A stretch of 24,387 nucleotides of DNA from a virus: IMG/VR virus record IMGVR_UViG_3300035698_011890, positions 1-24,387 of that record. One strand, 5' to 3'. The notes under the pieces were generated by a model. That model ran no database searches and had not been told where the DNA came from. It saw only the letters and a list, made by a program, of their open reading frames with translations. Below are positions 3,677 through 23,932 of this stretch, piece after piece. How positions within the stretch are numbered: position 1 is the stretch's first letter; each line of letters opens with the position of its first letter. Made by a program: the position numbers and the translations under genes.

Positions 3677-4690
3677 CTATGCTGTGGCCAATGTTGCTGA
3701 AATTGCCCCGTCACCCTTTAATATCACCTTATGTTTATGGAAATCAAACTGAACTGTTCGAACCCATAAATTAAACGCTGTGTTCATCGGGGATAGGGTG
3801 GAATCAATCCATGTAATCTTTTCTCCCGGTTTTGGAATATCCCCTTCTAATGGAATTCTCAATACCGCACGGGGTCGATGTATCAATGGTAAAATATTGG
3901 CAAGGATAGCATCAACAGCCGTTGTCTGAGTGGCGTAGACTTCCCCCACAGACGTTTCTTTACCCCACGAATAGGATGATGCCAGTTCACGTTCAAAGTC
4001 CGAGGAACCGCCTGTGATGATCGCTACGGGCACCTCATATGAATACTCACTTGGGAAATATTCAAATTCGGTGATTATCCGTGATCCATTGGTGGCGTAC
4101 ATATCAATCAGTTCAAGGGTCGCACCGGATGCCGTTATCCTAAACATGTGTGTATTTGGAGCCGCCGCCGCAGATAAATAATCAAGTATCCCTCTTTCCT
4201 GGGTTTGAATATGTTGAATTATGGGTGAGGGGGAACGTGCCAAAGTGGAATCCAGGGACATATTCAACCGGGAAGCATGCGTGGCCCATTGAAATAGGCC
4301 CACTAAAGTGGTGGCAAAAGACGCGGTGGCATCTGAGGCTATGGTGGTGGTATATTCCCTACCATATAAATCATAGGTGATGCCCTTCCGATCGATTGAT
4401 TTCAAATGCCCCGTGCCGGAAAGGATGGTTTCAGCGGCCTCCTGTGTTGTGGTACTATATTTAACCGTAATCGGGCATGATACCGGTGGAGGCCAATCAG
4501 CAGAAAACAGATCACGGGCAAAGGTCATTCCGCCAAAAGAGGGTTCAATATATCCCCCATATATTTTTTTTAATTTATTCTGAGGTGCGGTAATACTTTT
4601 AATGAAAGCATCCCAATAATCGGTCAGAGCATTTCCGTCCATACTGACATAATGCAACACAGAATTTATTGTGATTTCAACCAATAGCAT
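3677..4690 (-). CDS. Putative distal tail / baseplate-hub protein
   Basis: This 337-aa protein is encoded immediately after the tape measure, the usual position of distal tail or hub proteins in siphoviruses. No catalytic motif is visible. It is beta-rich. The central segment (ILDYLSAAAAPNTHMFRIT, about residues 170-190) and the C-terminal part (EKITWIDSTLSPMN, then strands ending VILKGDG) resemble the domain order of hub proteins that combine insertion and ring-forming domains. This is a weak structural impression. The start ATG at 4690 overlaps the tape-measure stop as TAATG, so translation is likely coupled; the nearest purine-rich site, GGATG, lies inside the tape-measure end. A weak spacer separates it from the next gene. 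Confidence 0.6.
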   Translation of the reverse strand: MLLVEITINSVLHYVSMDGNALTDYWDAFIKSITAPQNKLKKIYGGYIEPSFGGMTFARDLFSADWPPPVSCPITVKYSTTTQEAAETILSGTGHLKSIDRKGITYDLYGREYTTTIASDATASFATTLVGLFQWATHASRLNMSLDSTLARSPSPIIQHIQTQERGILDYLSAAAAPNTHMFRITASGATLELIDMYATNGSRIITEFEYFPSEYSYEVPVAIITGGSSDFERELASSYSWGKETSVGEVYATQTTAVDAILANILPLIHRPRAVLRIPLEGDIPKPGEKITWIDSTLSPMNTAFNLWVRTVQFDFHKHKVILKGDGAISATLATA

Positions 4691-7600
4691 TAGTCAAACA
4701 TCCTCTCGGTTCCCATGTTTCGCCGTTCCCCTTCAACCCGAACATTATCAGCCTCAATTCGGATAATATCTTTCATTCGTTCATCATCATGGTGAACATG
4801 TACATGGACCTCGGTTACACCACCACCAAATCCACCACCCTTCATTTGAGAAAAAATTCTATCTAAGGCATCAACGTTCTTTTTTGATACGACTTCTTCC
4901 CCGGCCTCACCCAAAAATAACCCCTCAACCATACTTGCCTTGCGCCCATTCCATGAAAAACTTCCCTTAGTACGAGATGTCAGTCGACCACCATCATGCT
5001 CAATTCCACCGGACCCTCCGGGACCACCTTCATCTGATGTATCTCCACCTTGATCCCCGGTTGCATCCCCACCACCTTGTCCTGAATCACCCCCGTCCGT
5101 ACCTGCACGGTCTGCTGCGGCATTCGCATCATTGGCCGCACCTTTTGCACGGTCCGCCGCTTCATTGGCTTGGTTCGTTGCATCCGCCACCGCCGCCTCC
5201 ATGGCATCAACATCAATTCCCATACGGCCAAAGGCATCTTTGGTGTCTAAACCAAATGCACCAAATGCGTCTTCTACCTCTGGAACATCAATTGATCCCA
5301 TACGGCCAAAGGCATTTGTAGCATCTAACGAAAATCCTTCAATGCCGTAACTGACAGCTCCTAAAGCAGCAACACCACGCGCCCCGAAATCTTCCGATGC
5401 TTGTCCAATGAAATCACCAAATGCTGCTGCATCCTCTGTAACTGATGTGGACATATCCCGGAAACCGGCCTCAATTTCTGCGGATGACCAACCCGCTTTT
5501 TCTGCTGCGGTTTGGGCTAAACTTGCAATATCTGTTGATACCTGTGACATTTCTTTTTCAACATCAAATCCTAATTCCGTGAACGTTTCCTTATTTTTTT
5601 CAACAAAAGCACCATATATTGCAGCCACATTTGCTGTTTGAACATTAGCCCCCAAAGGGTCATCTATTGTGCCCACTTTGTCGAAAAAATCACCTGCGAA
5701 TCCCCGCCGACCACCAAAATACCCCTGTTTGTCTTCATAATTATCCCGCAACGCTTCCGTACTACGCGCGTTGGCCATATCACCAAAGGCATCACCCCCC
5801 AAGGCACCCACAAGTCCACCAAGGATACTACCCACTATTCCAATGGGGGAGGGCATTGCCAGACCACCCACCGCACTACCCAAATATCCTCCGTACTGTC
5901 CGGCCTTTCCGCGAACCCCGACTTGCTGTGCAATGGTTCCACCAATCCCGTATTTCCCGATATCCGCCAAACCGTACCCTTCATTGTAAGGATTATCGGG
6001 GGCATCATATTCAGGTGCTTCTCCATCCCCACCCGGAAAAGGAATCTTATTATCGGTTTGAATCTTTAACATCATGTTACGGAAAGACCCGGCCAAATCC
6101 GCAGGAACCACCATTTCATTCTTGTGTAAATATGCGATACCCGGATTATTAACCCTCTTTGTGCCATCCGCCAATGCGGGAATGGTTGTTCCACCCTCCT
6201 CGGTTTCAATTCCCAATAGGGCTTTAACCGAGGAAATGGTTGCATTCATTGAATCAAATTGTGGCTGTAACGCGCCAACTCCTGATTTGAGGATGTTCAC
6301 AGCGCCAATCATTTTTTCATTGAATAAGGCAGGGTCGTAGAGGCTTTGCATGGCATCGTCCATGGCCTCATAAAAGGGAACCAATGCCTGTCGAAATAAT
6401 TCTGATTGCATCATGGCGGTGATCATGGCATCCAGAATTTGATTGTATATGGAATCATACAGGGATTTTTCAAATGAAGAAAATTCTCCGGTATTCAATC
6501 CCTCTTTAAATGCCGCCCCAATGGTTTGGGACGAATCGGCAATCATCTTATTCATTTTTTCTACATACGCAACGAACGCCTCATAAGATTCAAATCCGAG
6601 GGTGACCATCATTTCCTGAACACCGGTTTCCCACTGACTTTTAATGTGTTCCATTATAATGTCGAATTCTTCTTCCCAATTACCATTCTCGCTAATTGAA
6701 AATCCCTCAAACCCGGATTGATACATGGCACCGAACTTGACCCCAAAATCATCTAACGCTTGATCCAATCCGGGGATATGCCCACCCTCTAAAGATAAGG
6801 CGGACATGAATTGTGCATTGGCACCCATGAAAACCGGCCCCAATGCTTCATTCAGACTGGTTGCCAATTTATCCCCGAACTCCTGATCACCTCCAATTGC
6901 GGCGAATTCGGCGGTAAACCCATCCCCTACCCATCCGGCAACCACGGAACCGACCTCTGCATATTTGGTTTTCTCAGCAAATAGGGTATTGCCTAAATAA
7001 TCCCCAATTGCCTCACCAATTGCCGTGCCAATCATGGTACCGATAGGGCCAAAATATGATCCAACGAGTCCGCCGGCTGCGGCACTGCCCTCAGATAATA
7101 GATTTTTTGTTGAGTTTACCAGCGCCGTGGCATCCCCGGTCAATGCGAATGAGAACGCATCCCGTATCGCATTCTGTGCGCTCTTTGCAAATAAATCGAA
7201 TGCGTCTTTGGCCAATTCTGCTGTGGTATCAGCATCCCTGACCCACTGTGTGTACCCCACATGCAACCCGTCAAACAGGGTACCGGTGGCCAGCAATTTA
7301 TCTTCTTCTAATCGTATATATTTTTCCTGAAATGCATCGGTAATGATATCGAGTTCACCATACAAATCGATGTAGGCTTGTTTTTCAGAATCCAGAAGAC
7401 GTTTTTTATTATCGAAATAACCCTCATCCTTTGTTTCGATATCATTAAACAGACGATCGTACAGGTTCAATCGAGCATCAGCAGTTTCCTCAGTAATTTT
7501 TATGGTTTGTGTAGCAAGCCATTCTTCTCCTAAAACTGCATCATTAGCAGCCGCCCCTAAGTTAATGGCCTGAATTTGTAATTGTTCCTGTTTAATTTGT

Positions 7601-9774
7601 GTGGTGGTCATCGTGGAATGACGGATATCTTTATTCATCTCATCCACGGCTTTTATTTGGGAATCTATGGATTTTTTAAATTCGGCACTTTCTTTTTCCT
7701 GTGCTTTGGCAACACCGGCAATGATTTTCTCTTGTTTCTTTAACTCCTTATTTTTCTTCTTTTGTAATTCTCCGGTAGAGACTAAGGCATCCATTTCCGC
7801 CTTTGCCGATTTATCCACCAATGCAATTAAACTATCATACCGTTCCTCTCCAATCCGACCCTCTTTCAGCCAGTTATTGATTCGCAATTTATGATTCGCT
7901 ACTTCAACCTCAATCGCTTCTTGCTTGAACATCAAATCGGTCTTTCCCGCCTGTTCCATTTTGGACATTAAGGTCAGTTCCAAATTGGACACATCGAGAA
8001 TTTTAAGCTGTTCTTTTAATTGTTGATCGAGCAGGGCCACCTTTTCACGTTGGGCCTTTAAACTCTCCTTTTGTTTATCTTCCTCATTTGTTGAATTTAA
8101 ACTTTCCTGATTGATTTTTATATTTTGGAGAAGGGTGGCCCGTTTAGCCAATAGAGTATTTAGCCCTTTTCCCAAAGAGATTAAAAGTTTATCCCCATCT
8201 GCGGCATCACCCAAAACTTTCTGCTGTTGTTTGGTTGCCCGTTCATTCCGTAGAATAAGAACTTCTGTTTGAGTTAATTCCGCATTCAAATCTTTGATAT
8301 TCGTGGTCAATCTCTGAGTGGAAGGGGATTCCCCAAATTTTTCCAGCATCTCATTTGATTTGGTAATGGCATCATAAAATGAGATTTGCCCGGATACCGC
8401 CAAACCCAATGCGGATGGCAGGGATGTGACATAATATTCAGTTAAAATCCCCATCATTCCAGCGAGTTTAACGCCGACCGTAAGCACGTTGGCCATGGAA
8501 TTTCCAAGGGCAAGAAATGAATCCTTATTGTACCGGATATATTCGGTCATGGAACGAATGGTGTCTTTCAACCCGGATGCTTGCGATTCAAAAATATCGA
8601 TCTTCACACTCTCAATGACCGACATCAATTCTTTGAATGCACCTATTGTCGTGGATCGCATGGTGTCAGCAAGTTTTTTTGCGGCACCCTCATTATCAGC
8701 CACCACGGCTTGATATTCCCGCATGGCCTTTGATCCGATGGTCATAAAGGCGAGCATTGCCCGACCACCACGAGCAGCGAATATTTCCATAACCTCCATG
8801 GTGGAGGCACCCTTCTTTTCCAATAATTCAACGGCCTCAACCAATTGACGGGTATTACCCTCGGCATCGGTGGCGGATTCTCCGTAGCGTTCAAAAACTT
8901 TGTTGACTCGTTGCATACCCACGGCCAACTGGGTTCCCGCCATACTCCCCTGGATTCCGGCATTTCCGAGAAGACCAATATAGGATGATAATTGTTCAAC
9001 CGAATACCCGAACCCGCGAGCTAATGGAGCAGCGTATTTAAACGATTCTGCCAACATTTGAACGTTGGTGTTCGATGTGGTGATGGTCTTGATGAAAGTA
9101 TCGTTTACATGACCAAGTTCGTTAACCTCTAACCCCATTGCGGTCAATGCATTGGTGGCAATATCCGCCGCCGTGCCAAGATCAAGGTTACCGGCAGTTG
9201 CTAGATCGAGTGTTCCGGGTAATGCACCAATGGCCTCATCTACACTGAACCCGGCCATGGCTAAGAACTGCAATGCCTCTCCGGCCTGTGACGCGGACCA
9301 CTCGGTGGTTTCACCCATTAATCGGGCGGAATCCTTTAATTCATCAAATTGTTCTGTGGTGGCCCCGGCAATACCGCTAACCGTGGTTAAAACATGTTCA
9401 AATTTTGCACCGGTTCGAATGATATCAGCCGCAAGGTATGTGAGCCCCATTGTGGCCATCATGGTTTTCACATTGAATAGGGATTGTCGTACCCCGGTCA
9501 ATGTACCACCCATGGTCTTCATAGCCCCGCTAACATTCCCGATCGACATCTGGAATTTGGCGGTTTGCAGACGGGTCATTTTCAGCGACTTATCTAACGA
9601 GTCCATCGCTCTTTTTGCTTTATCTGCACCTAATTTTTTTAGTAAACGGGATTCTAATTTTTTGGATTCAACCTCGGTCTTTTTGGCGTTCAGACCGAGG
9701 GTGGTTAAATCTTTTTTAAGTCCTTGAACTGCTCGGCGGGATTCATCAGTGGTTATTTTAATTTTCAGAGCCAT
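4690..9774 (-). CDS. Tail tape measure protein (TP901 family)
   Basis: This 1694-aa protein sets tail length and is ejected ahead of DNA. Residues about 20-75 form a charged helix. Residues about 125-300 match the TP901-type core: FEHVLTTVSGIAGATTEQF, MGETTEWSASQAGEALQFLA, NALTAMGLEV and GIQGSMAGTQL. Long coiled coils occupy about 490-780. Two Gly/Ala-rich hydrophobic stretches lie near residues 895-930 (YFGPIGTMIGTAIGEAIGD) and 1280-1325, and are candidate membrane-inserting segments. The motif LADGTKRVNNPGIAYLHKNE precedes the second. Near 1535-1600 is an Asp/Gly/Ala-rich disordered linker, and a His-rich HVHVHH lies near 1660. By the usual rule of about 0.15 nm per residue the tail would be roughly 250 nm (inference). 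The start lies inside the end of the frameshifted chaperone frame, as is typical. Confidence 0.95.
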   Translation of the reverse strand: MALKIKITTDESRRAVQGLKKDLTTLGLNAKKTEVESKKLESRLLKKLGADKAKRAMDSLDKSLKMTRLQTAKFQMSIGNVSGAMKTMGGTLTGVRQSLFNVKTMMATMGLTYLAADIIRTGAKFEHVLTTVSGIAGATTEQFDELKDSARLMGETTEWSASQAGEALQFLAMAGFSVDEAIGALPGTLDLATAGNLDLGTAADIATNALTAMGLEVNELGHVNDTFIKTITTSNTNVQMLAESFKYAAPLARGFGYSVEQLSSYIGLLGNAGIQGSMAGTQLAVGMQRVNKVFERYGESATDAEGNTRQLVEAVELLEKKGASTMEVMEIFAARGGRAMLAFMTIGSKAMREYQAVVADNEGAAKKLADTMRSTTIGAFKELMSVIESVKIDIFESQASGLKDTIRSMTEYIRYNKDSFLALGNSMANVLTVGVKLAGMMGILTEYYVTSLPSALGLAVSGQISFYDAITKSNEMLEKFGESPSTQRLTTNIKDLNAELTQTEVLILRNERATKQQQKVLGDAADGDKLLISLGKGLNTLLAKRATLLQNIKINQESLNSTNEEDKQKESLKAQREKVALLDQQLKEQLKILDVSNLELTLMSKMEQAGKTDLMFKQEAIEVEVANHKLRINNWLKEGRIGEERYDSLIALVDKSAKAEMDALVSTGELQKKKNKELKKQEKIIAGVAKAQEKESAEFKKSIDSQIKAVDEMNKDIRHSTMTTTQIKQEQLQIQAINLGAAANDAVLGEEWLATQTIKITEETADARLNLYDRLFNDIETKDEGYFDNKKRLLDSEKQAYIDLYGELDIITDAFQEKYIRLEEDKLLATGTLFDGLHVGYTQWVRDADTTAELAKDAFDLFAKSAQNAIRDAFSFALTGDATALVNSTKNLLSEGSAAAGGLVGSYFGPIGTMIGTAIGEAIGDYLGNTLFAEKTKYAEVGSVVAGWVGDGFTAEFAAIGGDQEFGDKLATSLNEALGPVFMGANAQFMSALSLEGGHIPGLDQALDDFGVKFGAMYQSGFEGFSISENGNWEEEFDIIMEHIKSQWETGVQEMMVTLGFESYEAFVAYVEKMNKMIADSSQTIGAAFKEGLNTGEFSSFEKSLYDSIYNQILDAMITAMMQSELFRQALVPFYEAMDDAMQSLYDPALFNEKMIGAVNILKSGVGALQPQFDSMNATISSVKALLGIETEEGGTTIPALADGTKRVNNPGIAYLHKNEMVVPADLAGSFRNMMLKIQTDNKIPFPGGDGEAPEYDAPDNPYNEGYGLADIGKYGIGGTIAQQVGVRGKAGQYGGYLGSAVGGLAMPSPIGIVGSILGGLVGALGGDAFGDMANARSTEALRDNYEDKQGYFGGRRGFAGDFFDKVGTIDDPLGANVQTANVAAIYGAFVEKNKETFTELGFDVEKEMSQVSTDIASLAQTAAEKAGWSSAEIEAGFRDMSTSVTEDAAAFGDFIGQASEDFGARGVAALGAVSYGIEGFSLDATNAFGRMGSIDVPEVEDAFGAFGLDTKDAFGRMGIDVDAMEAAVADATNQANEAADRAKGAANDANAAADRAGTDGGDSGQGGGDATGDQGGDTSDEGGPGGSGGIEHDGGRLTSRTKGSFSWNGRKASMVEGLFLGEAGEEVVSKKNVDALDRIFSQMKGGGFGGGVTEVHVHVHHDDERMKDIIRIEADNVRVEGERRNMGTERMFD
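5219..5315 (-). repeat. Short repeat inside the tape measure gene
   Basis: The same 19 bases (CCCATACGGCCAAAGGCAT, plus-strand reading) occur at 5219-5237 and 5297-5315, a period of 78 bases or 26 codons. They encode a repeated AFGRMG peptide, and a diverged third copy between them gives DAFGAFG. This looks like a small in-frame duplication near the tape measure C-terminus. Confidence 0.75.
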
Positions 9775-10557
9775 TTTGACCTCGTATCATGGAAGGATAA
9801 ATAAATTCATCCAGTTTTAAAACACGTTCAAAAGTCTGTAACGGCTCATCATATGCACGGCATAATTCAATTATTGCCTGTGTGGGAATCATGCCGCGTT
9901 TACCCGAGGGGAAAATTGGGCGGTCACGATATAGAAGATTGAATAGGTGCCATGCCGTATGATTACCTTCTTCTAAATCGGGCTTATTACATTCTTCAAT
10001 TTCCCCTCCATCATAAATTTCAAATTCACACGGTGGCTTGCCATCATAGACTATTCGGCATCCGTCACAGTCGGCGTTGTTTGGGACAGATTGCCATTCT
10101 GCCCATTCTTTAAGTTTTTTTCCTTTTCCTTATCCGTGACAGCTATCATTTTGAAACGTTCCTCCGCCTCGGCAAGGACATAATTGATGACATCGGGATT
10201 CATTTCAAACACGATCAATTTATTCTTTCGATTGCATTCCGGGTTGGAGTCGACCACTTTCCCGTTCTCATCCGTCAACTCAATTCCTTCCCACCCGGTG
10301 ATAATCCCGTCAACACGGTCAAAGGTAATGCCGAGGTAATCAACCTCTTTGATCAATTCCGATTTGGTCTTTTTGTCCGGGGCTTTCCATTCCGCATGGG
10401 TGTTCTCATCGATCATCAGTTTATTTTCAGACGGGGTGAGGGGGGAAACCATGAACTTTGCAAGGACTTTACCGATACGTTTGGTCTGTTCCTTGTTCCA
10501 TTTTTCCCGGTATTCAATGACGTGTTTTTGTTTTTCAACTCTTAAACGTAATGACAT
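9758..10557 (-). CDS. Tail assembly chaperone, -1 frameshift fusion product (GT-like)
   Basis: This is the predicted long form of the tail chaperone: 148 codons of the upstream gene plus 118 codons read after a -1 shift at A AAA AAC, 266 aa in all. The -1 frame is open without interruption from the slip site (10114) to a TAA at 9758-9760, 17 bases inside the tape measure gene. It has no usable start codon: its first in-frame ATG comes near extension residue 75. The extension begins LKEWAEWQ and contains CDGCR, a Cys-containing linker, then HTAWHLFNLL and a helical C-terminus (IPTQAIIELCRAYDEP). This matches the C-x-x-C...N-x-x-AW-x-L pattern of second-frame tail chaperones between tail tube and tape measure. 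In lambda, gpG and gpGT guide tail tube assembly on the tape measure; the same role is inferred. Confidence 0.85.
10051..10557 (-). CDS. Tail assembly chaperone, short form (G-like)
   Basis: This 168-aa zero-frame product lies between tail tube and tape measure, the classic site of the gpG-type chaperone. I chose the ATG at 10557 because GGAGGAAG lies at the right distance; an in-frame upstream start seven codons earlier has no comparable site. The N-terminal half is charged, with repeated Lys/Glu. The middle (KSELIKEVDYLGITFDRVDG, ending ITGWEGIEL) is mixed alpha/beta. The tail is Lys-rich (DKEKEKN) where the slippery codons lie, and the zero frame continues only 20 codons more to TAG. No strong sequence family is evident, as is normal for these fast-evolving proteins. 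The call rests mainly on position and on the frameshift signal. Confidence 0.8.
   Translation of the reverse strand: MSLRLRVEKQKHVIEYREKWNKEQTKRIGKVLAKFMVSPLTPSENKLMIDENTHAEWKAPDKKTKSELIKEVDYLGITFDRVDGIITGWEGIELTDENGKVVDSNPECNRKNKLIVFEMNPDVINYVLAEAEERFKMIAVTDKEKEKNLKNGQNGNLSQTTPTVTDAE
10084..10104 (-). promoter_or_regulatory. Frameshift-stimulating hairpin
   Basis: Nine bases after the slippery heptamer, GGGCAGA (10104-10098) can pair with TCTGTCC (10090-10084), giving a 7-bp stem with one G-U pair and a 7-base loop. The spacing fits that expected for a -1 frameshift stimulator. Pairing was read by eye; no energy was computed. Confidence 0.7.
10114..10120 (-). promoter_or_regulatory. -1 ribosomal frameshift slippery heptamer A AAA AAC
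   Basis: On the minus strand the zero-frame codons GAA AAA AAC give the heptamer A AAA AAC, with phase exactly matching the 10557 start (AAC is codon 148). Both tRNAs can re-pair after slipping back one base. The -1 frame that follows is open for 118 codons. Confidence 0.88.
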
Positions 10558-10709: not shown

Positions 10710-11897
10710 TTAAATAAAACACAATTCGGCGGAATCTTCCCCTGCAGTTCCCAATGCTTTCATGGGGATACTCAATTCAACTGCCGGGGCATTGAATGTG
10801 ATTGCGGGAACTTGTAACCGAGTCTTTTGCATGTGAAGAACCATGGTTTTCCCGGCCACATTTCCGAAGGTTACTCGAATGGGAATTTCATTCCCGGAAT
10901 ACCCTTCACGGAAATACTTGGCATCCGCCTTTCGGAAATAAATGTTTAACGTACTGGTGATACTTCTGGCACCCTCTGCGTAATCCTCGGGGAAATCGGT
11001 TCCGACCTCATCCGTGAAATACGTTTTCGGGACATCGATTGTGATCTCCGTGGTTTTGAATTTCGCGGATACCGAATTCAATGTCAATGAGGTATCTTTA
11101 CCCTCAATGGGAGTCCCGATGGTGGTTTCATCCGGGAGGAACCCGGCAATCGAAGCACCACTCGCCCATGCCGCATCCACCACCGGAGTCACAGTCAAAA
11201 TATTGGAGGTAGCATTTGAGGCGGTAATGGTATACCCGGCATCACTGTTATTGAGGGACGCGGTTTTATTATAAATCCGCGCACTGGCAGAGAACCGGGA
11301 AGCATCAGTGACATGAATAGTTCCCGCACCTGACGCCACGGCCCCATTGATCATATCCGTCCCGGCAAACACCATCTGCATACCCTCACCGGAAAAATTG
11401 AACTGTACCGCGCCCTCATTGGAAATGGTTAAGGTAGCATTGGTGACCGTACACCCGGATAATCCTTGAACGAAATGATCCGTTTCAACCCACAGGGAAA
11501 AGGACGGAGCATATGTTCTCTGCATGTAAAAAATTCCGGCATTATTCAGGTCCGTGCAATACGATGAGGACGCGACCGTTGACTGTTTCCCGAACATGGA
11601 TATGAACAGGGCATCCCCCTGCGGAATTTGCCCCACGGCATCCCCGGCGCGAACCAGAGTGGGTAGGGTGAAAGTCCCGGAGGGCATTGCCCCCTGAAAC
11701 TGATCCACGATATCAAGAGTATCCAGTTTTTCAGGAGAATCGGAAAAATCCGGGGTTTGATTTACCACGGCATCTCCTGCGACCCGGACAAATCCCAATG
11801 TGGCCCCTGACCCGGAAGGAAATACCAGGGTTCCCGGAGAGACCTCCGCAACAGCAAATACACGCTGTTTTCTTGATACGCCAATGTTTGTGGCCAT
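10710..11897 (-). CDS. Major tail tube protein
   Basis: This 395-aa protein is the likely tail tube subunit. I chose the ATG at 11897 because AAAGGAG lies eight bases upstream; a GTG three codons earlier abuts the site and is unlikely. The N-terminal part (MATNIGVSRKQRVFAVAEVS, then a GATLGFVRVAGDAVVNQTP strand pattern) resembles tail tube proteins of siphoviruses. Residues about 180-260 look like an inserted small beta domain (GAGTIHVTDASRFSASARIY). The C-terminal third returns to core strands (SARSITSTL-like, then FRKADAKYFREG). At about 395 residues it is longer than minimal tubes, which fits the insertion. Its position, after the terminator-like gene and before the chaperone and tape measure, supports the call. 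Confidence 0.82.
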   Translation of the reverse strand: MATNIGVSRKQRVFAVAEVSPGTLVFPSGSGATLGFVRVAGDAVVNQTPDFSDSPEKLDTLDIVDQFQGAMPSGTFTLPTLVRAGDAVGQIPQGDALFISMFGKQSTVASSSYCTDLNNAGIFYMQRTYAPSFSLWVETDHFVQGLSGCTVTNATLTISNEGAVQFNFSGEGMQMVFAGTDMINGAVASGAGTIHVTDASRFSASARIYNKTASLNNSDAGYTITASNATSNILTVTPVVDAAWASGASIAGFLPDETTIGTPIEGKDTSLTLNSVSAKFKTTEITIDVPKTYFTDEVGTDFPEDYAEGARSITSTLNIYFRKADAKYFREGYSGNEIPIRVTFGNVAGKTMVLHMQKTRLQVPAITFNAPAVELSIPMKALGTAGEDSAELCFI

Positions 11898-11919: not shown

Positions 11920-13101
11920 TTATGGTGTTATGGCACCCGGAACGTCCTCAATCATATCCATCAATGAGAGCAAATTTAATTGTTCCAAATTCAATCTCAA
12001 TGCGGACTTAATTTTGGGTTTTAAATTTTCGGACACCGCAGGGAAAATCCCTTTTAAATTTGTCAATTGGAAAACCCCCTGCTGCAATTTAATCATTGCG
12101 AGGGAATTCACGACATACGCCAAGGAGTCAATATTATGGGTGAATACAAACTCCTGTCTTGTTTGAAATTCACCCTGCTCCATTCGAAAGTATAATTCCA
12201 TGTAGTGGGTGGCACCGGATTCAACCAATTCCATTCGATTGATCCAGAACCCCATTTCAACAGTGATAAAGGCGATATCAATATAATCGCTGGCATCGGT
12301 TATGGCCATAGCCAAAATTTCGGCAGCTGTTTTTTTCCATCCGAGATTCATTGCACTCCGCAATGCCGTGTAATACACGTTTGAGTTCGGGGTGACATCC
12401 ACCTTTTTACACCGCTCAATGTATTCGGTCCCGGATTTAATGGCATTTTGGTTGTCATTCCTGAGTGAATAGTCCTGACTCAGATAGAAATATATTTCGA
12501 TGTTATCCGGTTCGTCCTTTTGTTTTTTGAGTAATAATGCGGTTCGGCGCTCTGATTTGATTTTTGTTTTTTCCGGCCCCATTGCTTCTTCATCATACCC
12601 GTAATGATTCAGGTAGCATCCCGTCAATGCTCCGACTTTTGATTCCCCGTATTTGGGCTTATTGTGAATGAAATTTTTATATTGAACCACGTCCACATCA
12701 AAGAACCGGGGGGTGGGAAATGTCATCACAACCTTTCCCTTTTGAATATCATCCAGACGAAGTGTGAGAACTTTACAATCAGCCGGCGAGGATTCAAGTT
12801 TACGCCGAATATCGGATAACGGGATTTCTCCAATTAATTCCTCATCGGCATCCACAATGAAAATCCAATCCGCACCCTCATCCTTGGCATGTTGAATTCC
12901 CTGATTTCGATGAATGGAATAATCATCCTCCCACGGGTGTTCAAATACTTTTGCCCCCTGTGCTTTTAAATATTCAACCGTTCGATCGGTGGAACCTGTA
13001 TCGACCACAATGATCTCATCCACAAACGGTTTAATCGTGGGAATGCAACGTTTCAAATTTTCTTCTTCATCCTTAATCATCATCACCGCAAATAATTTCA
13101 T
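11920..13101 (-). CDS. GT2 family glycosyltransferase with helical-repeat C-terminus
   Basis: This 393-aa protein is a GT-A fold family 2 glycosyltransferase, transferring a sugar from a nucleotide-sugar donor. Visible motifs are MMIKDEEENLKRCI (residues 7-20), VVDTGSTDRT (32-41), HRNQGI (64-69) and the metal-binding VDADEE (83-88, DxD). Residues beyond about 200 are helical and look TPR-like (IEIYFYLSQDYSLRNDNQNA). This layout resembles SunS-type and other GT2-TPR enzymes, some of which glycosylate peptides. The start has AAGGAGG upstream. It sits in the same direction between the tail terminator and tail tube genes, so it is co-expressed with virion proteins. Acceptor and donor are unknown; tail or capsid protein glycosylation, or host-surface modification, are both possible. 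Confidence 0.88.
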   Translation of the reverse strand: MKLFAVMMIKDEEENLKRCIPTIKPFVDEIIVVDTGSTDRTVEYLKAQGAKVFEHPWEDDYSIHRNQGIQHAKDEGADWIFIVDADEELIGEIPLSDIRRKLESSPADCKVLTLRLDDIQKGKVVMTFPTPRFFDVDVVQYKNFIHNKPKYGESKVGALTGCYLNHYGYDEEAMGPEKTKIKSERRTALLLKKQKDEPDNIEIYFYLSQDYSLRNDNQNAIKSGTEYIERCKKVDVTPNSNVYYTALRSAMNLGWKKTAAEILAMAITDASDYIDIAFITVEMGFWINRMELVESGATHYMELYFRMEQGEFQTRQEFVFTHNIDSLAYVVNSLAMIKLQQGVFQLTNLKGIFPAVSENLKPKIKSALRLNLEQLNLLSLMDMIEDVPGAITP

Positions 13102-14858: not shown

Positions 14859-15845
14859 TTACCCCTTATAGGCATGAATCCCGATAATTATTGAAAGCGT
14901 TCCTCCGCCTGTTTCACATTTGGCTCTAGCCCACAGTTTAGTAGCCACAGCAATTCGGGACATTTGACATACAATGGGTTGAGATTCAGCGGAATTTGAA
15001 GCGGTGCGATACGGTATTTCTGTCATCAATGTGGCTGCTCCAAAAATCCCCGTACCCGCCCAAATTTGAACCATGTAGTTTTTATCATTAACACTGGACT
15101 CAGTGATCATAATTCGATGAAGATCAAATTTAACCACCGTGATACCCATGTCCGCATCAAGTACATCACTTGCGGCGGATAATTGAACCTCTGTCCCATA
15201 TGTGTTGGCCGCTGCATCAGCGACCAAAGTCCAGGGAGCAAGGTTATTAGCCACTGACATTGTGGAATCACCGTCCGTGCCATACCAACGTTCAACCGAA
15301 TGAAAATGGGTTTCAATCTCATGAACGCGGTAGGCAAGGGAATTATGCACCCCCGATAGACCATTTGTGGCCAAATTATCTATCTTAATGGCACCGGCAT
15401 AATCAGGACCGGCCTTTCGATCAATGTAAATTTTAATTACTCCAACGGCAGAGGCCGTTGCCTGATTGGATAGTGTGCAGGTCATATCTCCGTATACATA
15501 ACGGGTGCCAATTATGGGAACTTCCTGTTGAGTAAGGGTGGCGGAACGGTTCGCCAAAATACCCCCCATAATATCAACAGCGTCCACGGTTAAGGTTAAA
15601 TCATAGAGGTCAGGAGCGGGAACTCCGGGATTGGTAACAACCAAGGTGACATAGCCTAGAACAGGAAACGTCACAGCGGGAACGGCTCCCGTTCCGGAAT
15701 CCCCTTTCCATGTAATGGTGATCACCTTCTTTCCGTTCTCACGGTCTGTATCGGTGGTCACGGCCACCGCAGAACTGCCAGCAGCCATAACCACCGAGGG
15801 CAAAAAGAACAGAAGGGCAATGAATAGTGTAAGGAATTTTTTCAT
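14859..15845 (-). CDS. Secreted or envelope protein of unknown function with Sec signal peptide
   Basis: I do not recognise the family of this 328-aa protein. It starts MKKFLTLFIALLFFLPSV and continues VMA-AG, a strong type I Sec signal peptide with probable cleavage after residue 21. There is no lipobox Cys. The mature part is beta-rich, Thr/Ala/Gly-rich, with a His-rich helix HEIETHFHSVERWYG near residues 180-195 and only a few Cys residues. It overlaps the upstream stop as TAATG, with AAAAGGAAA as a modest ribosome binding site. A host-targeted signal in a capsid-connector operon is unusual. It could be a moron acting at the cell envelope, or a virion protein whose leader acts as a propeptide. 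Confidence 0.72.
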   Translation of the reverse strand: MKKFLTLFIALLFFLPSVVMAAGSSAVAVTTDTDRENGKKVITITWKGDSGTGAVPAVTFPVLGYVTLVVTNPGVPAPDLYDLTLTVDAVDIMGGILANRSATLTQQEVPIIGTRYVYGDMTCTLSNQATASAVGVIKIYIDRKAGPDYAGAIKIDNLATNGLSGVHNSLAYRVHEIETHFHSVERWYGTDGDSTMSVANNLAPWTLVADAAANTYGTEVQLSAASDVLDADMGITVVKFDLHRIMITESSVNDKNYMVQIWAGTGIFGAATLMTEIPYRTASNSAESQPIVCQMSRIAVATKLWARAKCETGGGTLSIIIGIHAYKG

Positions 15846-16234
15846 TACTTTGATTTCCTTTTTTTGGTTGAAAGTCCACGTTTCGGTTTTATGGGTTTCA
15901 ACACAGGGTCCGGCTCGGGTTCGGGGTCCGGCTCGGGTTCGGGGTCCGGCTCGGGTTCGGGGTCCGGCTCGGGTTCGGGGTCCGGTTCCGGGAATGCTTT
16001 ATCCCCGGAATCCGGTTCATCCAAAAACGCATCAACCACAGGTTCCGGCTGTTCATCCACATGCGCCGATTTCAAAGCATCAAGTTCGGCCTCGATTTTT
16101 GCATTGTCATCAGCAAGTTCCGCATCAGATTTAAATGGTATTACCACCACTTTAGCCGCTTCCGCCTCGGCAAGTTTTTTTCGTCGTTTTGCCTTATCCT
16201 TTCTCCGTCTACGATTAAAACCGGTCAATGACAT
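15845..16234 (-). CDS. Low-complexity protein with Glu-Pro-Asp-Pro repeats and basic ends
   Basis: This 129-aa protein has no recognisable family. The N-terminus is strongly basic (NRRRRKDKAKRRKKLAEA), then an acidic helix (ADDNAKIEAELDALKSA), then residues about 80-113 consisting of alternating EPEPDP units, and finally a basic tail (KPKRGLSTKKRKSK). Alternating charge with a rigid Pro-rich spacer suggests an extended linker. Basic ends might bind nucleic acid or acidic partners, but this is inference. AAAGGAGG lies upstream of the ATG. It lies between the possible decoration proteins and the secreted protein, so a capsid-associated role is possible. The repeats are encoded by perfect 18-base tandem DNA units. 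Confidence 0.7.
   Translation of the reverse strand: MSLTGFNRRRRKDKAKRRKKLAEAEAAKVVVIPFKSDAELADDNAKIEAELDALKSAHVDEQPEPVVDAFLDEPDSGDKAFPEPDPEPEPDPEPEPDPEPEPDPEPEPDPVLKPIKPKRGLSTKKRKSK
15912..15983 (-). repeat. Perfect 18-base tandem repeat, four units
   Basis: The plus-strand unit GGCTCGGGTTCGGGGTCC is repeated four times without change at 15912-15983, with partial units on both sides. On the coding strand each unit encodes EPEPDP-type residues. Perfect identity at synonymous positions points to recent slippage or unequal exchange. Confidence 0.95.
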
Positions 16235-16290: not shown

Positions 16291-16740
16291 TTATTCGTGG
16301 GTACGTTGACTTTTCACCGTGGCAAAAGAGGCACCACCCAATTGGATCGGCCCGATTACACGGAGAATATCAATATCTCCGGTGGCCCACGTTCCGGGTG
16401 AGCCGGTGAGGGTTACCGTCTGTGTCCCGCCCACCAACATCAGGGACGCGGTGGATGCGGTCAATGTGCCGGGGTGACCACCAACCACACCGAGAATGGA
16501 TGCAACAGAAGCCCCAAGGGCATTGGCAATGTTGGTATGCGCCCATGTATGCAACTGATTTGACCCATTGACCAGTTTAATGATGACGGAACGGGTGAAT
16601 GCTCCGGTGGCGCGAGTCGCACTGGCTGTGACCGGAGAACAAATCAGGGTCATTTGCCGGGAAAGAGCCTCACCCATTCTGGCGATTTTAATCATTTCCG
16701 CGCCAAGACTGTGACTGGTTGATTTATTTAACTTAGGCAT
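16291..16740 (-). CDS. Possible capsid decoration protein, paralogue B
   Basis: This 149-aa protein is clearly related to its neighbour at 16799-17260. Shared segments are GAFTRSVIIKL versus GGFTRTLTITL, LHTWAHTNI versus LHTWCNTSI, and the identical core GTQTVTLTGSPG followed by an aromatic residue and AT. Both end with a KSQ motif. The pattern suggests a small beta-sandwich. AGGAG lies seven bases before the ATG. Two small paralogues directly after the major capsid gene are good candidates for capsid decoration or cementing proteins; no family name can be given and no experimental analogue is claimed. A helical N-terminus (LGAEMIKIARMGEALS) may anchor it. Confidence 0.62.
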   Translation of the reverse strand: MPKLNKSTSHSLGAEMIKIARMGEALSRQMTLICSPVTASATRATGAFTRSVIIKLVNGSNQLHTWAHTNIANALGASVASILGVVGGHPGTLTASTASLMLVGGTQTVTLTGSPGTWATGDIDILRVIGPIQLGGASFATVKSQRTHE

Positions 16741-16798
16741 AATTAACTCCTTGTTTAACTGGCAGTTTACAGAATAAAACGTTCAAAAAAAATAAAAA

Positions 16799-17260
16799 TT
16801 AAGCCGTGTGAAGCAGTTGCGACTTTACCGATTTTGCTGCAAACTCAGCCCCGCCCAAGGAATTGATCAAGGCGTTCTTTACAACCGATCGGCCATCGGT
16901 GGCATATGAGCCGGGAGAACCGGTCAATGTTACCGTCTGTGTTCCGGCGACCAAGGTCAATGTGGTGGTACTTAGAGCCAATGTCCCGGAAGCACCGGCA
17001 CCAGATTTGGATGCAGATATTGCACTGGTAATGGATGTATTGCACCATGTGTGCAACTCTCCGGCAGCAGTTTTCAAGGTGATTGTCAGGGTACGGGTAA
17101 ATCCACCGGCAGTGGTGGTCCATGAGGAACTTTGTGTTGCAGGGGTGATTGCCAATACCATATCACCCGACATGCCTTTTCGCATCAATGCGTCTTTTGT
17201 GATACGTTCACTGTCCGAATGCTTCGTATTGCCAATCGAGGCAATTTGCCGAATACTCAT
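16799..17260 (-). CDS. Possible capsid decoration protein, paralogue A
   Basis: This 153-aa protein is the first gene after the major capsid gene and a paralogue of the 149-aa protein that follows. The N-terminal 45 residues (ending in MRKGMSGDMVLAITPA) differ most from the copy, while the beta-rich middle and GTQTVTLTGSPGSYAT are conserved. The N-terminus may be the capsid-binding arm. The start has AAAGGAG upstream. A decoration or head-fibre role is inferred from size, position and beta-rich composition. It could also be a second, minor structural protein. No signal peptide or catalytic motif is present. Confidence 0.62.
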   Translation of the reverse strand: MSIRQIASIGNTKHSDSERITKDALMRKGMSGDMVLAITPATQSSSWTTTAGGFTRTLTITLKTAAGELHTWCNTSITSAISASKSGAGASGTLALSTTTLTLVAGTQTVTLTGSPGSYATDGRSVVKNALINSLGGAEFAAKSVKSQLLHTA

Positions 17261-18406: not shown

Positions 18407-19294
18407 TTAAGCGGTAATTGGGGTTTTAATCCCCGCCTCAATTTGGAGTGTTTTAACCAATTCCGGGTTTGTGGTTATAATTCGACCTTGTTCCGTCAAA
18501 TTTCTGGATTCAGACTTCCATGGATTTACGATAGTGGAAGTGCGGCCTCGTTGAAAATCCCCTGCCCCACTTCCGTTTCCTCTCCCGATCAACAATGAAT
18601 CACGATCTGGATCACGGGTAACGAGTTTGTCTAGGGCAATTTCGAATCCGGCGAGTTCGTAGTTGTTGGATGCATCCAGTATTTTCTCTCCGTCTGCATA
18701 CCGGCCAACCGTGACCATCTTGCCGTTTTCTTGTTTTTCGACTTTAAAATTTTCTGAAAAATACGCACGGGCCATTTTCGGAGTCATAGCCAGTTTTTCT
18801 TTCACAAAGGGACTTGTATTGAATTGATCATCGATCATGAGGCGACGGATGGTTTCATCCTTGCTCTCGTTGTCGACGGATAGGGCCGTGACTTCTTCTT
18901 CATGCCGTTTCCCGATCTCGGTGAGTTTGGTTTCCAAATCCTCACGGGCCTGTCGTTTAATCGTTTCCACATCCCCGGCCTTAATCAAATCCCCGTCCGC
19001 GAGATTCTTTACGGTTTCGAGGGCTTTCTTTGCTGATTCGATCCATTCGGCCAGTTCATCAGATTTTATCCCACTAGCCTCAATCGTTGCAATGGTGGCT
19101 TCGGCATCTTTAAGTTTCGTGCGATAGTTTTTTGCTTCTCCCCTTAAATCAGGAATCGAGGTGTAATTGGCCAAGGCATCCATCCCGAATTCTTCCGGGT
19201 CTTTGTCTCCGTCATGATCATTGATCACAATCGGGTGACCTTGTTCATTTACCGTGATATTCCCTTTCTCTGTGAATTTGTACTTTAAAGCCAT
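18407..19294 (-). CDS. Scaffold-like protein (DUF6651 type)
   Basis: This 295-aa protein is a probable internal scaffold for capsid assembly. I chose the ATG at 19294 because AAAGGAGG lies four bases upstream; an in-frame ATG ten codons earlier lacks such a site. The N-terminus (MALKYKFTEKGNITVNEQGH) is beta-like, followed by long charged helices from about 45 to 155 (a stretch with AKNYRTKLKDAEATIATIEA and REDLETKLTEIGKRHEEE), typical of scaffolds. Later IDDQFNTSPFVKEKLAMTPK and ARAYFSENFKVE resemble the DUF6651 phage group. The C-terminus (RTSTIVNPWKSESRNLTEQG) is flexible, and scaffold tails often bind capsid. Direct position before the capsid gene supports the call. Confidence 0.82.
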   Translation of the reverse strand: MALKYKFTEKGNITVNEQGHPIVINDHDGDKDPEEFGMDALANYTSIPDLRGEAKNYRTKLKDAEATIATIEASGIKSDELAEWIESAKKALETVKNLADGDLIKAGDVETIKRQAREDLETKLTEIGKRHEEEVTALSVDNESKDETIRRLMIDDQFNTSPFVKEKLAMTPKMARAYFSENFKVEKQENGKMVTVGRYADGEKILDASNNYELAGFEIALDKLVTRDPDRDSLLIGRGNGSGAGDFQRGRTSTIVNPWKSESRNLTEQGRIITTNPELVKTLQIEAGIKTPITA

Positions 19295-19742: not shown

Positions 19743-21755
19743 TTAATCCTTTTTATCCACCTTGGGTATGACTGACGGCTCCCATTTAACGGTTACCGGG
19801 GGTTTGCCAAATCCGAGTTCTTTCCTGATTATTTCATTCAACCGGGGAAAAACTTCATTTGCCTTTAATCCATACCCATATGTATTGGCTGTCACTTCGG
19901 CCATTGCTTCGCTGAGTCCGGCATTCCCTGATTGAAAAAAATATCCCATATTATCGGGAACACCATTATATTTTTTTAATGCATCCTTAACATCATCCGC
20001 ATATGCTTTGATAAACCGAGCATTGGTAACCTCAGATTCAAATAATGCATGACCAATCTCATGGTAAAGAGTATATTTATTTCGGTCAAAATTAACAGTG
20101 GAATAGGTGCCACCCCATTTCGTTTTATGTGAAAGGACAATTTCCTTTCGCATCTTGTTATAAAAACCGTCCACGGATTCCCATGTCATTCCCTTGGCCC
20201 ATCCACGAGGGTGGTTATCTTTCATAAATGGGTAGGCATCTATTAATTTATCTGTGAAATGCACATTGACGTTTTTATTCCCCATTAGTCTGAATAAATC
20301 TGGATTGTTTTTAACTTCTTCATCCATGGCATCAAACCAAACCTTTGGAGCATTTCCTGTTTGTTTGAGTGTCACACCTCCCAATTTTTCAATTTTATTT
20401 GGTGGCATTGGTTCCAGAGTTTTTGGTTCCGGAATTTTCGGTTCTTTTGTTTCCAGAACTATTGTTGGTTTTTTAACCTTGGGTGCCACCTTGGATTTTG
20501 TGTCAAAATCAATCCCACCAAATTCCTTTTCCAATTTCCCCTGCATAACTTTAACTTGATTACCAGTTAATTTTTTACCAGAAAGCCATTTGTCCCTTAA
20601 TTTCCATTCATTTTCTGTGAATGTGTCCCCGGTTATTTTATTAAGTACCACCGGTTTAGGGGTTAATTCATCAATCAATCGTAGTCGACCGGTCTTTAAA
20701 TTCACCAAATCCTTAAACTCTACAATTCCTGTGTCCAGAAGTTCCAAACGTTTAGGGCCAAACACATTTAATTGGAATGTTTTTGATTGACCGTTGAAAA
20801 ACGATTCAAATGTTCCCTGATGGAACCCCACTTCGTTAATCTTCCGTTTTCCACCGGCATTAATGGGACCGGTGCGCAACGTGTAAGGACGATACACTTG
20901 ATCGATCTCATCCATATTCAATCCCAATTCCCGATATGTTACGGTAACCGGTAATAAAATACAGCGACAACGAGGATGTAACGGGCAAGGGGGGGATTCG
21001 TTTACCAGATATTGTTCCCCATCGAGAACGGCACACCGAGGGCATGTACCGACCCCGGTTTGAACATTCCCGGCCTCCAACGTGGAGCTCCATTTAACCT
21101 TTTTCACAACTTGCGGGTTTGCATTATATACCGCATTTTGTGCCCCGACATTCACGGAGTGTACATAGGTACGGGCGAGGGTGACCGCCTCACGGTTCGA
21201 TATGTTGTTGAACCCTTCTTCCAACCGTTTGACAATGGGTGCAATGCCCTGCCCTCGGAGTTGGCCGGTAATGATTTCCTGTTTGATTTTCTGCTGAATG
21301 TTCGAATCGAATGTGCGATTTACCCAATCTGATAGAGTAGCACCACCTATCGGGGTGGTCATAATTGCGGATTTTACCTGTGCTGCAGAGAGGGCTACGT
21401 TTGTGAAATTCGCAACCCTCCCGCCAAAGGACACAATATCGGAATGCTCCAACGTACTCCGTGCGCCGGTCACCCCGGAAATTTCGGTCAGCTGCTCGGT
21501 TAATTGCCCCTGAACACCAACAGAGAATCGATTGATCTCACCGAGCATTTCATCCGATCGGGCCTTAGACCAACTTTTTATTTTGTTCCCTTTGGTTTTG
21601 ACGTATCCGGTGATCTCTTTTTTCGCCTGTTGCAAAGAACGTTGAACGATGTGGAGGGATTCGTCGGTATATTGATCTAGCTGATATTCCCATGCAACGT
21701 TTCGAGAAAGGGTAATCAAGTCTTTTAATTCGTCCGGGGATAACTTCGGGGCCAT
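19743..21755 (-). CDS. MuF-type head morphogenesis protein fused to a zinc-metallopeptidase-like domain
   Basis: This 670-aa protein is a minor head protein of the SPP1 gp7/Mu F group with an extra C-terminal domain. Residues about 1-100 are helical. Residues about 185-275 contain EAVTLARTYVHSVNVGAQNA, then CPRC (238-241), LDGEQY, and CPLHPRCRC (257-265), the hallmark Cys/His end of the MuF domain. Residues 300-450 are less clear, with a Pro/Lys/Glu linker at 423-455. Residues about 470-640 hold YHEIGHALFE, with HEIGH at 565-569, and GLSEAMAEVTAN around Glu616, fitting an HExxH zincin with a downstream Glu ligand. The start has GGAAGG upstream. The peptidase may mature the head or act as a MuF-linked effector; both are inference. 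Confidence 0.85.
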   Translation of the reverse strand: MAPKLSPDELKDLITLSRNVAWEYQLDQYTDESLHIVQRSLQQAKKEITGYVKTKGNKIKSWSKARSDEMLGEINRFSVGVQGQLTEQLTEISGVTGARSTLEHSDIVSFGGRVANFTNVALSAAQVKSAIMTTPIGGATLSDWVNRTFDSNIQQKIKQEIITGQLRGQGIAPIVKRLEEGFNNISNREAVTLARTYVHSVNVGAQNAVYNANPQVVKKVKWSSTLEAGNVQTGVGTCPRCAVLDGEQYLVNESPPCPLHPRCRCILLPVTVTYRELGLNMDEIDQVYRPYTLRTGPINAGGKRKINEVGFHQGTFESFFNGQSKTFQLNVFGPKRLELLDTGIVEFKDLVNLKTGRLRLIDELTPKPVVLNKITGDTFTENEWKLRDKWLSGKKLTGNQVKVMQGKLEKEFGGIDFDTKSKVAPKVKKPTIVLETKEPKIPEPKTLEPMPPNKIEKLGGVTLKQTGNAPKVWFDAMDEEVKNNPDLFRLMGNKNVNVHFTDKLIDAYPFMKDNHPRGWAKGMTWESVDGFYNKMRKEIVLSHKTKWGGTYSTVNFDRNKYTLYHEIGHALFESEVTNARFIKAYADDVKDALKKYNGVPDNMGYFFQSGNAGLSEAMAEVTANTYGYGLKANEVFPRLNEIIRKELGFGKPPVTVKWEPSVIPKVDKKD

Positions 21756-22646: not shown

Positions 22647-23363
22647 TTACCTCCATATTAAAATATCTGTTTCCCAATCATATGTCGGGAGTGTATTTAT
22701 TTCATATAGGGCCACGGGTTTATCATCCATACCAAACATCGTTAATTCCCGGCAATAGGTCAGATTCACTTCTTCCAATAGGTCCGGGGTATAATAATGC
22801 CGCCAATCAGGGTGCCGTTCGGGTGATACATTTTGCCGTTTCCGTTGCCGATAGGACAGTTTCAATTTTTTGGCCAGTACCGACAGACCGCCATCAAGGT
22901 ATTCGGTGAATAACACATATTTAATCATACATCGGCCCTCATATGAAAACATGGGCCACCACAGGAATTGTTTTGATGGCCACGGACGTTCTCGATTAAT
23001 GATTGCCCGAACGAATGTTGGGAATCCTTTTTCCGCTAATTCCTGTTCAAACGGAATTTGTTTTCCCTTTTTGGATTCTGTTCTGCGGTTATGACAATAA
23101 TAGCTGACCAAGAAATCACGAGGATCACGCACGATCGTGAACGGTACAGTTAAATTTGCATCCACAAGCATCGTAGAGACACGTGGCCGTATATCCGGCT
23201 TACCATATAACGGATATTTATCCGTCGGAACATCAGAAGACGTATCAGCAAACCAGCAATGGCCGAGGTAATTTAATGGGGTGATCACCGACTGATATTT
23301 CAAATATGATCCACCAGTTTTCGGGATATGAACAAACGATAGAATAGGTTTTGAAATTGTCAT
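22647..23363 (-). CDS. Sulfotransferase-like protein
   Basis: This 238-aa protein resembles PAPS-dependent sulfotransferases, which move sulfate onto sugars or other acceptors. The 5'-phosphosulfate loop is FVHIPKTGGSY (residues 10-20), and the 3'-phosphate region is IVRDPRDFLVSYYCHNRR (77-94), with the Arg and Ser usual in the family. The C-terminal YYTPDLLEEVNLTYCRELTM segment, then FGM, matches the family's end helix. Length fits a single-domain enzyme. Its start overlaps the methyltransferase-like stop as ATGA, so the two are coupled. Acceptor unknown; virion sugars or host envelope glycans are plausible given the GT2 gene downstream. Confidence 0.82.
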   Translation of the reverse strand: MTISKPILSFVHIPKTGGSYLKYQSVITPLNYLGHCWFADTSSDVPTDKYPLYGKPDIRPRVSTMLVDANLTVPFTIVRDPRDFLVSYYCHNRRTESKKGKQIPFEQELAEKGFPTFVRAIINRERPWPSKQFLWWPMFSYEGRCMIKYVLFTEYLDGGLSVLAKKLKLSYRQRKRQNVSPERHPDWRHYYTPDLLEEVNLTYCRELTMFGMDDKPVALYEINTLPTYDWETDILIWR

Positions 23364-23932
23364 GGATGTTCCCTTAAATAATCCATCAGGAAAGAGCGTG
23401 CCGCATCAGGGATAGCAATTAAATTATCCCCCTTGATCACCGTGTAATAACCAACTGGCAAACTCGCAAGCACTTCCCTGATGTTAGGCCATTTATCCGG
23501 GTCATGCGGTTTTGGTGGTGGTCGGAGGAACATGGACATGTTATCAATTAGAATACAATGATCATGGTTTGACTTAGAAACTGAATACAATTCCTCTAAT
23601 AACGGACATTCAATATCCGCGCCCCCGGTTGTACCTCCACTCCAATGGGCATCCAACCATACCATTGAATTCCCCTCCAAAAGAAAATCCGATAAACGAG
23701 AAGTAGAATCACCGAGAATCCATCTGATATTATCGGGAGGTTCCAGGATATGTTTTTTTCGGTAATCAAAGGTTTGTGGACTAATTTCTATCGTGACCAC
23801 ACTACGGAAATGGGCAGAGGCCCACATTGCGGTATCACCCACATTCGTACCTGTTTCAATGAACCGTTCAACTTTAAATTTTTTAGAAAGACCAATTACC
23901 AGATCAGGATCAAACCAAATTCGATATGCCAT
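23360..23932 (-). CDS. SAM-dependent methyltransferase-like protein
   Basis: This 190-aa protein looks like a class I methyltransferase of the small-molecule or FkbM-related kind. Motif I is FIETGTNVGDT (residues 24-34), the acidic end of strand two is VVTIEIS (Glu49), motif III-like WILGDST lies at 71-77, and VWLDAHWSGG at 91-100 with GADIECPLLEEL after it. ILIDNM near 128-133 is a further strand end. Glycine spacing in motif I is imperfect (ETGTNVG), as in several FkbM-like enzymes. GAGGATAAT precedes the ATG. Overlap with the sulfotransferase gene suggests one pathway, perhaps carbohydrate tailoring. Its codons 6-24 are repeated at the right edge of the window. Confidence 0.75.
   Translation of the reverse strand: MAYRIWFDPDLVIGLSKKFKVERFIETGTNVGDTAMWASAHFRSVVTIEISPQTFDYRKKHILEPPDNIRWILGDSTSRLSDFLLEGNSMVWLDAHWSGGTTGGADIECPLLEELYSVSKSNHDHCILIDNMSMFLRPPPKPHDPDKWPNIREVLASLPVGYYTVIKGDNLIAIPDAARSFLMDYLREHP
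23862..23918. repeat. 57-base direct repeat, internal copy
   Basis: These 57 bases are identical to 24331-24387 in the same direction, 469 bases apart. This copy lies in the methyltransferase-like gene. The bases to its left differ from the other copy; to its right the other copy is cut by the window edge. Confidence 0.97.

Follow-up and report, generated by a model that had tools for sequence, protein, structure and literature searches.

A probable programmed -1 ribosomal frameshift linking two tail chaperone frames in an uncultivated siphovirus-like phage

How would the second of two overlapping frames be translated when no start codon lies near its beginning? We met this question in an IMG/VR virus fragment of 24,387 nucleotides (hereafter the window), whose tail module occupies the minus strand from 13961 to 4690 and encodes, in order, an HK97-gp10-like protein, a tail terminator, a glycosyltransferase, a tail tube protein, a pair of candidate chaperone frames and a tape measure protein. 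The overlapping pair thus sits between the tail tube and tape measure genes, which is the layout of the G/GT type. The features on which our analysis turns are as follows.

10710-11897, minus strand: tail tube protein (PF18906 Phage_tube_2, E 7e-10)
10051-10557, minus strand: 0-frame, G-like tail assembly chaperone of 168 aa, ATG start after GGAGG (PHROG 313 tail assembly chaperone, E 0.0076)
10121-10131, minus strand: purine-rich AAGGAAAAGGA, seen in the sequence just 5' of the heptamer
10114-10120, minus strand: slippery heptamer A AAA AAC
10083-10104, minus strand: candidate stimulatory hairpin, 7 bp plus one bulged U, 9 nt past the heptamer
9758-10129, minus strand: -1 frame ORF (T-like extension), 118 codons after the heptamer
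9989-10069, minus strand: module of four cysteines opening the extension, CDGC...PPC...EEC
4690-9774, minus strand: tape measure protein (PhageMin_Tail, E 4e-39; PHROG 1533, E 2.5e-76)

From 10129, which directly follows a stop, down to 9758 the -1 frame is open, giving 123 codons from stop to stop, and the 118 codons that the original prediction had counted past the heptamer were found there. Its first 60 codons contain no ATG, GTG or TTG, again as predicted, and the only near-start codons among them are ATA and ATT. Both motifs previously noted, CDGCR and HTAW-x-L (here HTAWHL), are present in the extension, which ends 17 bases inside the tape measure gene (9758 against an ATG at 9774). The interval 9775-10050 had been expected to appear as a gap, and it does indeed lack any minus-strand ORF of at least 60 aa with a start codon; annotation based on start codons would therefore miss a conserved domain. 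An open -1 frame spanning this 274-nt gap arose in 56 of 20,000 dinucleotide shuffles. Codon-usage scoring did not separate the frames over the whole extension (0.066 vs 0.073 bits per codon), and beyond the 0-frame stop it placed the -1 frame on top, if weakly (0.107 vs at most 0.04).

The heptamer is in the reading phase of the 10557-10051 ORF, near its end, and is separated from the hairpin by the nine predicted nucleotides, TTAAAGAAT. In-phase XXXYYYZ sequences (Y = A/T) occupy 42 of 6,675 codon positions, two of them being A AAA AAC. The other in-phase copy lies at 19133, also within a gene of the window, so that the heptamer has no significance by itself; its placement and its conservation do.

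Searching both proteins directly against viral contigs and phage genomes gave no matches, nor did we find sequence similarity between the two and any annotated phage, so the tape measure gene served as the route to relatives. Upstream of it, a scripted scan looked for 0/-1 overlaps of the same layout, using a filter that we set ourselves on lengths and on an end near the tape measure gene, in which heptamers played no part. It returned 76 non-redundant overlaps, the window included. These are not fully independent, since a duplicate was discarded only where its first frame matched another over all of the last 40 residues. An in-phase slippery heptamer was present in the overlap in 55 of the 76, roughly 13-fold above the 4.2 expected from the in-phase heptamer frequency in the tape measure genes of the same loci. 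AAAAAAC was the commonest (n = 19), and 21 overlaps had no canonical heptamer. Looking for such enrichment ahead of the tape measure gene offers a simple test that works where profiles are weak. A search with the tail tube protein added a distant case, L003. Among the individual loci, that of Roseobacter phage RDJL6 (L006:2485-2868) combines AAAAAAC in phase with a -1 extension of 125 codons ahead of the tape measure gene, the second frame being annotated in the phage record as a separate hypothetical protein.

The original prediction had named non-conservation of the second frame in related phages as grounds for rejecting it; we found instead that the heptamer and the -1 extension are kept in independent contigs. 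Homologues of the region were found through the -1 frame only. The extension aligns with those of five loci (L002, L018, L028, L044 and L074), just two of which, L044 and L002, are found by tblastn (E 3e-12 for L044). All six divergent sequences begin with KKL at the heptamer, which is AAAAAAC in L002, L018, L028 and L074 and AAAAAAT in L044/L171; it is immediately followed by the 0-frame stop in both L002 and L044. Their alignment was too divergent for a scan of the collection. A closer pair, L171 and L170 (the latter on the same contig as L044), is 77% identical and retains the heptamer and UAA unchanged. Here differences are concentrated at the third codon position, and dN/dS for the extension in the -1 frame is 0.103 (NG86) or 0.194 (YN00), values from which we conclude that the extension is under purifying selection in this pair. 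Selection at the protein level in these relatives, together with the missing start in the window, is what a second frame of the G/GT type would be expected to display.

These comparisons also bear on other ways of explaining the two frames. Since the contig is metagenomic and the junction homopolymeric, one may ask whether a single gene was split when an assembly or sequencing error changed the length of the seven-A run. However, the same junction occurs in independent contigs from other samples, the 0-frame stop right after the heptamer is conserved in L002 and L044/L171, and both frames carry a third-position excess of differences, which together leave an artefact very improbable. We give as little credence to the second frame being a gene of its own, reached by re-initiation or begun at a non-standard codon. 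Downstream frames can couple to an upstream stop, and near-cognate codons exist in some relatives (e.g. CTG in L002), yet the window lacks the three usual start codons at the beginning of the frame, conservation of the extension starts at the heptamer with its invariant KKL, and heptamers are enriched some 13-fold. A fusion could also be made by transcriptional rather than ribosomal slippage, since A runs can cause RNA polymerase to slip, with a similar product; however, the window's run is short, and relatives use GGGAAAC and GGGAAAG at the same junction, heptamers that are not homopolymers and that fit tandem tRNA slippage, so that polymerase slippage, too, has only a very slight chance of being correct.

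By a wide measure we favour a programmed -1 ribosomal frameshift like that of lambda G/GT, here within the tail genes of a siphovirus-like phage, and we hold this explanation to be very probably right. Gene order, the conserved heptamer and extension, purifying selection, frame-specific homology, and weak profile and fold matches all support the chaperone reading originally proposed. Most ribosomes would translate 10557-10051 into the 168-aa G-like chaperone, while a minority, with Lys and Asn tRNAs paired to A AAA AAC, would slip back by one base and then read the -1 frame, yielding a fusion of approximately 266 aa (148 + 118). If lambda is a guide, the portion shared by both products may coat the tape measure protein, and tail tube subunits may be recruited by the extension. 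What the sequences show directly is the anatomy, its conservation and, in relatives, purifying selection on the extension; the slippage, how often it occurs, the part played by the hairpin and the binding partners are inferred.

The original prediction described the frameshift signal as complete. Heptamer, spacer and -1 frame bear this out, but the stimulator was overstated, the hairpin being the weakest part. Its seven pairs are present (GGGCAGA-AUGGCAA-UCUG(U)CCC, with an optional eighth U-A pair at the base), though it spans 10104-10083, one base longer than the predicted 10104-10084, on account of the bulged U. Compared with shuffled sequence its stability is not clearly better (z -0.76 in a 50-nt window, -0.89 in 96 nt), and a competing fold beats it in windows of 60-70 nt. 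Several homologues have stems at a similar distance from the heptamer, and those of L018, L028 and L074 are much stronger (z -3.3 to -4.2), starting within approximately 5-8 nt of the heptamer; a stimulator is therefore plausible for the group and unproven in the window. The purine-rich AAGGAAAAGGA could possibly act as an internal stimulator resembling a Shine-Dalgarno sequence.

Profile comparison with known tail chaperones, a check put forward with the original prediction, gave weak matches. The 0-frame protein matched PHROG 313 (listed above), to which its L002 homologue is closer (5e-6). For the extension we obtained PHROG 3817, a tail chaperonin (E 0.003), and PF23812 Phage_TAC_18 (E 0.001), the latter at 19.7 bits against a Pfam curated cut-off of 27, and we did not assign membership. 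An AlphaFold2 model of the extension built from six sequences (mean pLDDT 77, pTM 0.68) matched in BFVD named tape-measure or tail chaperones of Caulobacter phages (CcrColossus), Enterobacter phage F20 and Acinetobacter phage Loki, with probability 0.97-0.99, TM about 0.5 and E 0.045-0.25. The best BFVD match, a protein without a name, had E 0.008 and none reached 0.001, while sequence and fold searches of the PDB gave no meaningful match. We take the predicted fold as supportive rather than decisive.

As in lambda, the frame pair stands before the tape measure gene, the -1 shift would fall late in the first frame, and the extension would be made only as a fusion. The lambda heptamer, GGGAAAG, is different, and the Cys4 module that opens the extension is a further departure from lambda. 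In lambda, -1 frameshifting sets the G to GT ratio at about 30:1 (PMC5009743). The window's own heptamer, A_AAA_AAC, is reported as a shift site in haloarchaeal virus HCTV-2, and in E. coli constructs it was much less slippery than A AAA AAG (PMC5009743), which may not hold for the window's host. Another close system is phage Loki, whose AAAAAAC junction was published as a predicted frameshift (PMC5313236) and is annotated in its record (LN890663, gp12/gp13) as a joined CDS. Loki shares with the window the heptamer, an extension starting with KKL and the order relative to the tail protein and tape measure genes; its chaperone also weakly matches the predicted fold of the window's extension. 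Profile comparison of the two extensions was not significant. In contrast to the window, where the 0-frame runs on to 10051, the Loki 0-frame stop directly follows the heptamer; further, one extra gene precedes the Loki tape measure gene, and its extension is without the four cysteines. Given these precedents, the mechanism, its position and the heptamer were already known, and the locus adds a clear frameshifted chaperone case from an uncultivated phage without a close sequenced relative.

The one unexpected feature, a small twist on this otherwise ordinary case, is the four-cysteine module. Its pattern, CxxC...C...C, is invariant in the six homologues, and the weak PF23812 and PHROG 3817 matches fall in the extension beyond most of the cysteines (three of the four precede the Pfam match region). 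The module is a possible metal site. We propose tentatively, and with rather less than even confidence, that these extensions make up a subfamily within the second-frame chaperones, marked by an N-terminal, possibly zinc-binding Cys4 directly after the junction, which would place a metal site only on the rare fusion. Among titles and abstracts, we identified no paper joining frameshifted tail chaperones with a zinc module, and we regard the Cys4 module as a small, testable lead.

Other genes of the window deserve brief mention. The family 2 glycosyltransferase (11920-13101, minus strand; PF00535, E 5e-16) lies within the tail module, between the tail terminator and tail tube genes. A protein at 15845-16234 (minus strand) has a long Asp-Pro-Glu-Pro repeat, and at 16291-17260 (minus strand) two neighbouring small proteins of no Pfam family look alike by eye (LTGSPG motif) and are possibly duplicated. 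The Mu F-like head protein (19743-21755, minus strand; PF04233) has a long C-terminal region with HEIGH, resembling a zinc-metallopeptidase motif. Finally, a sulfotransferase-like protein (22647-23363, minus strand; PF00685, E 4e-5) carries an HIPKTGG motif, and its gene adjoins that of a possible methyltransferase without a Pfam match (23360-23932).
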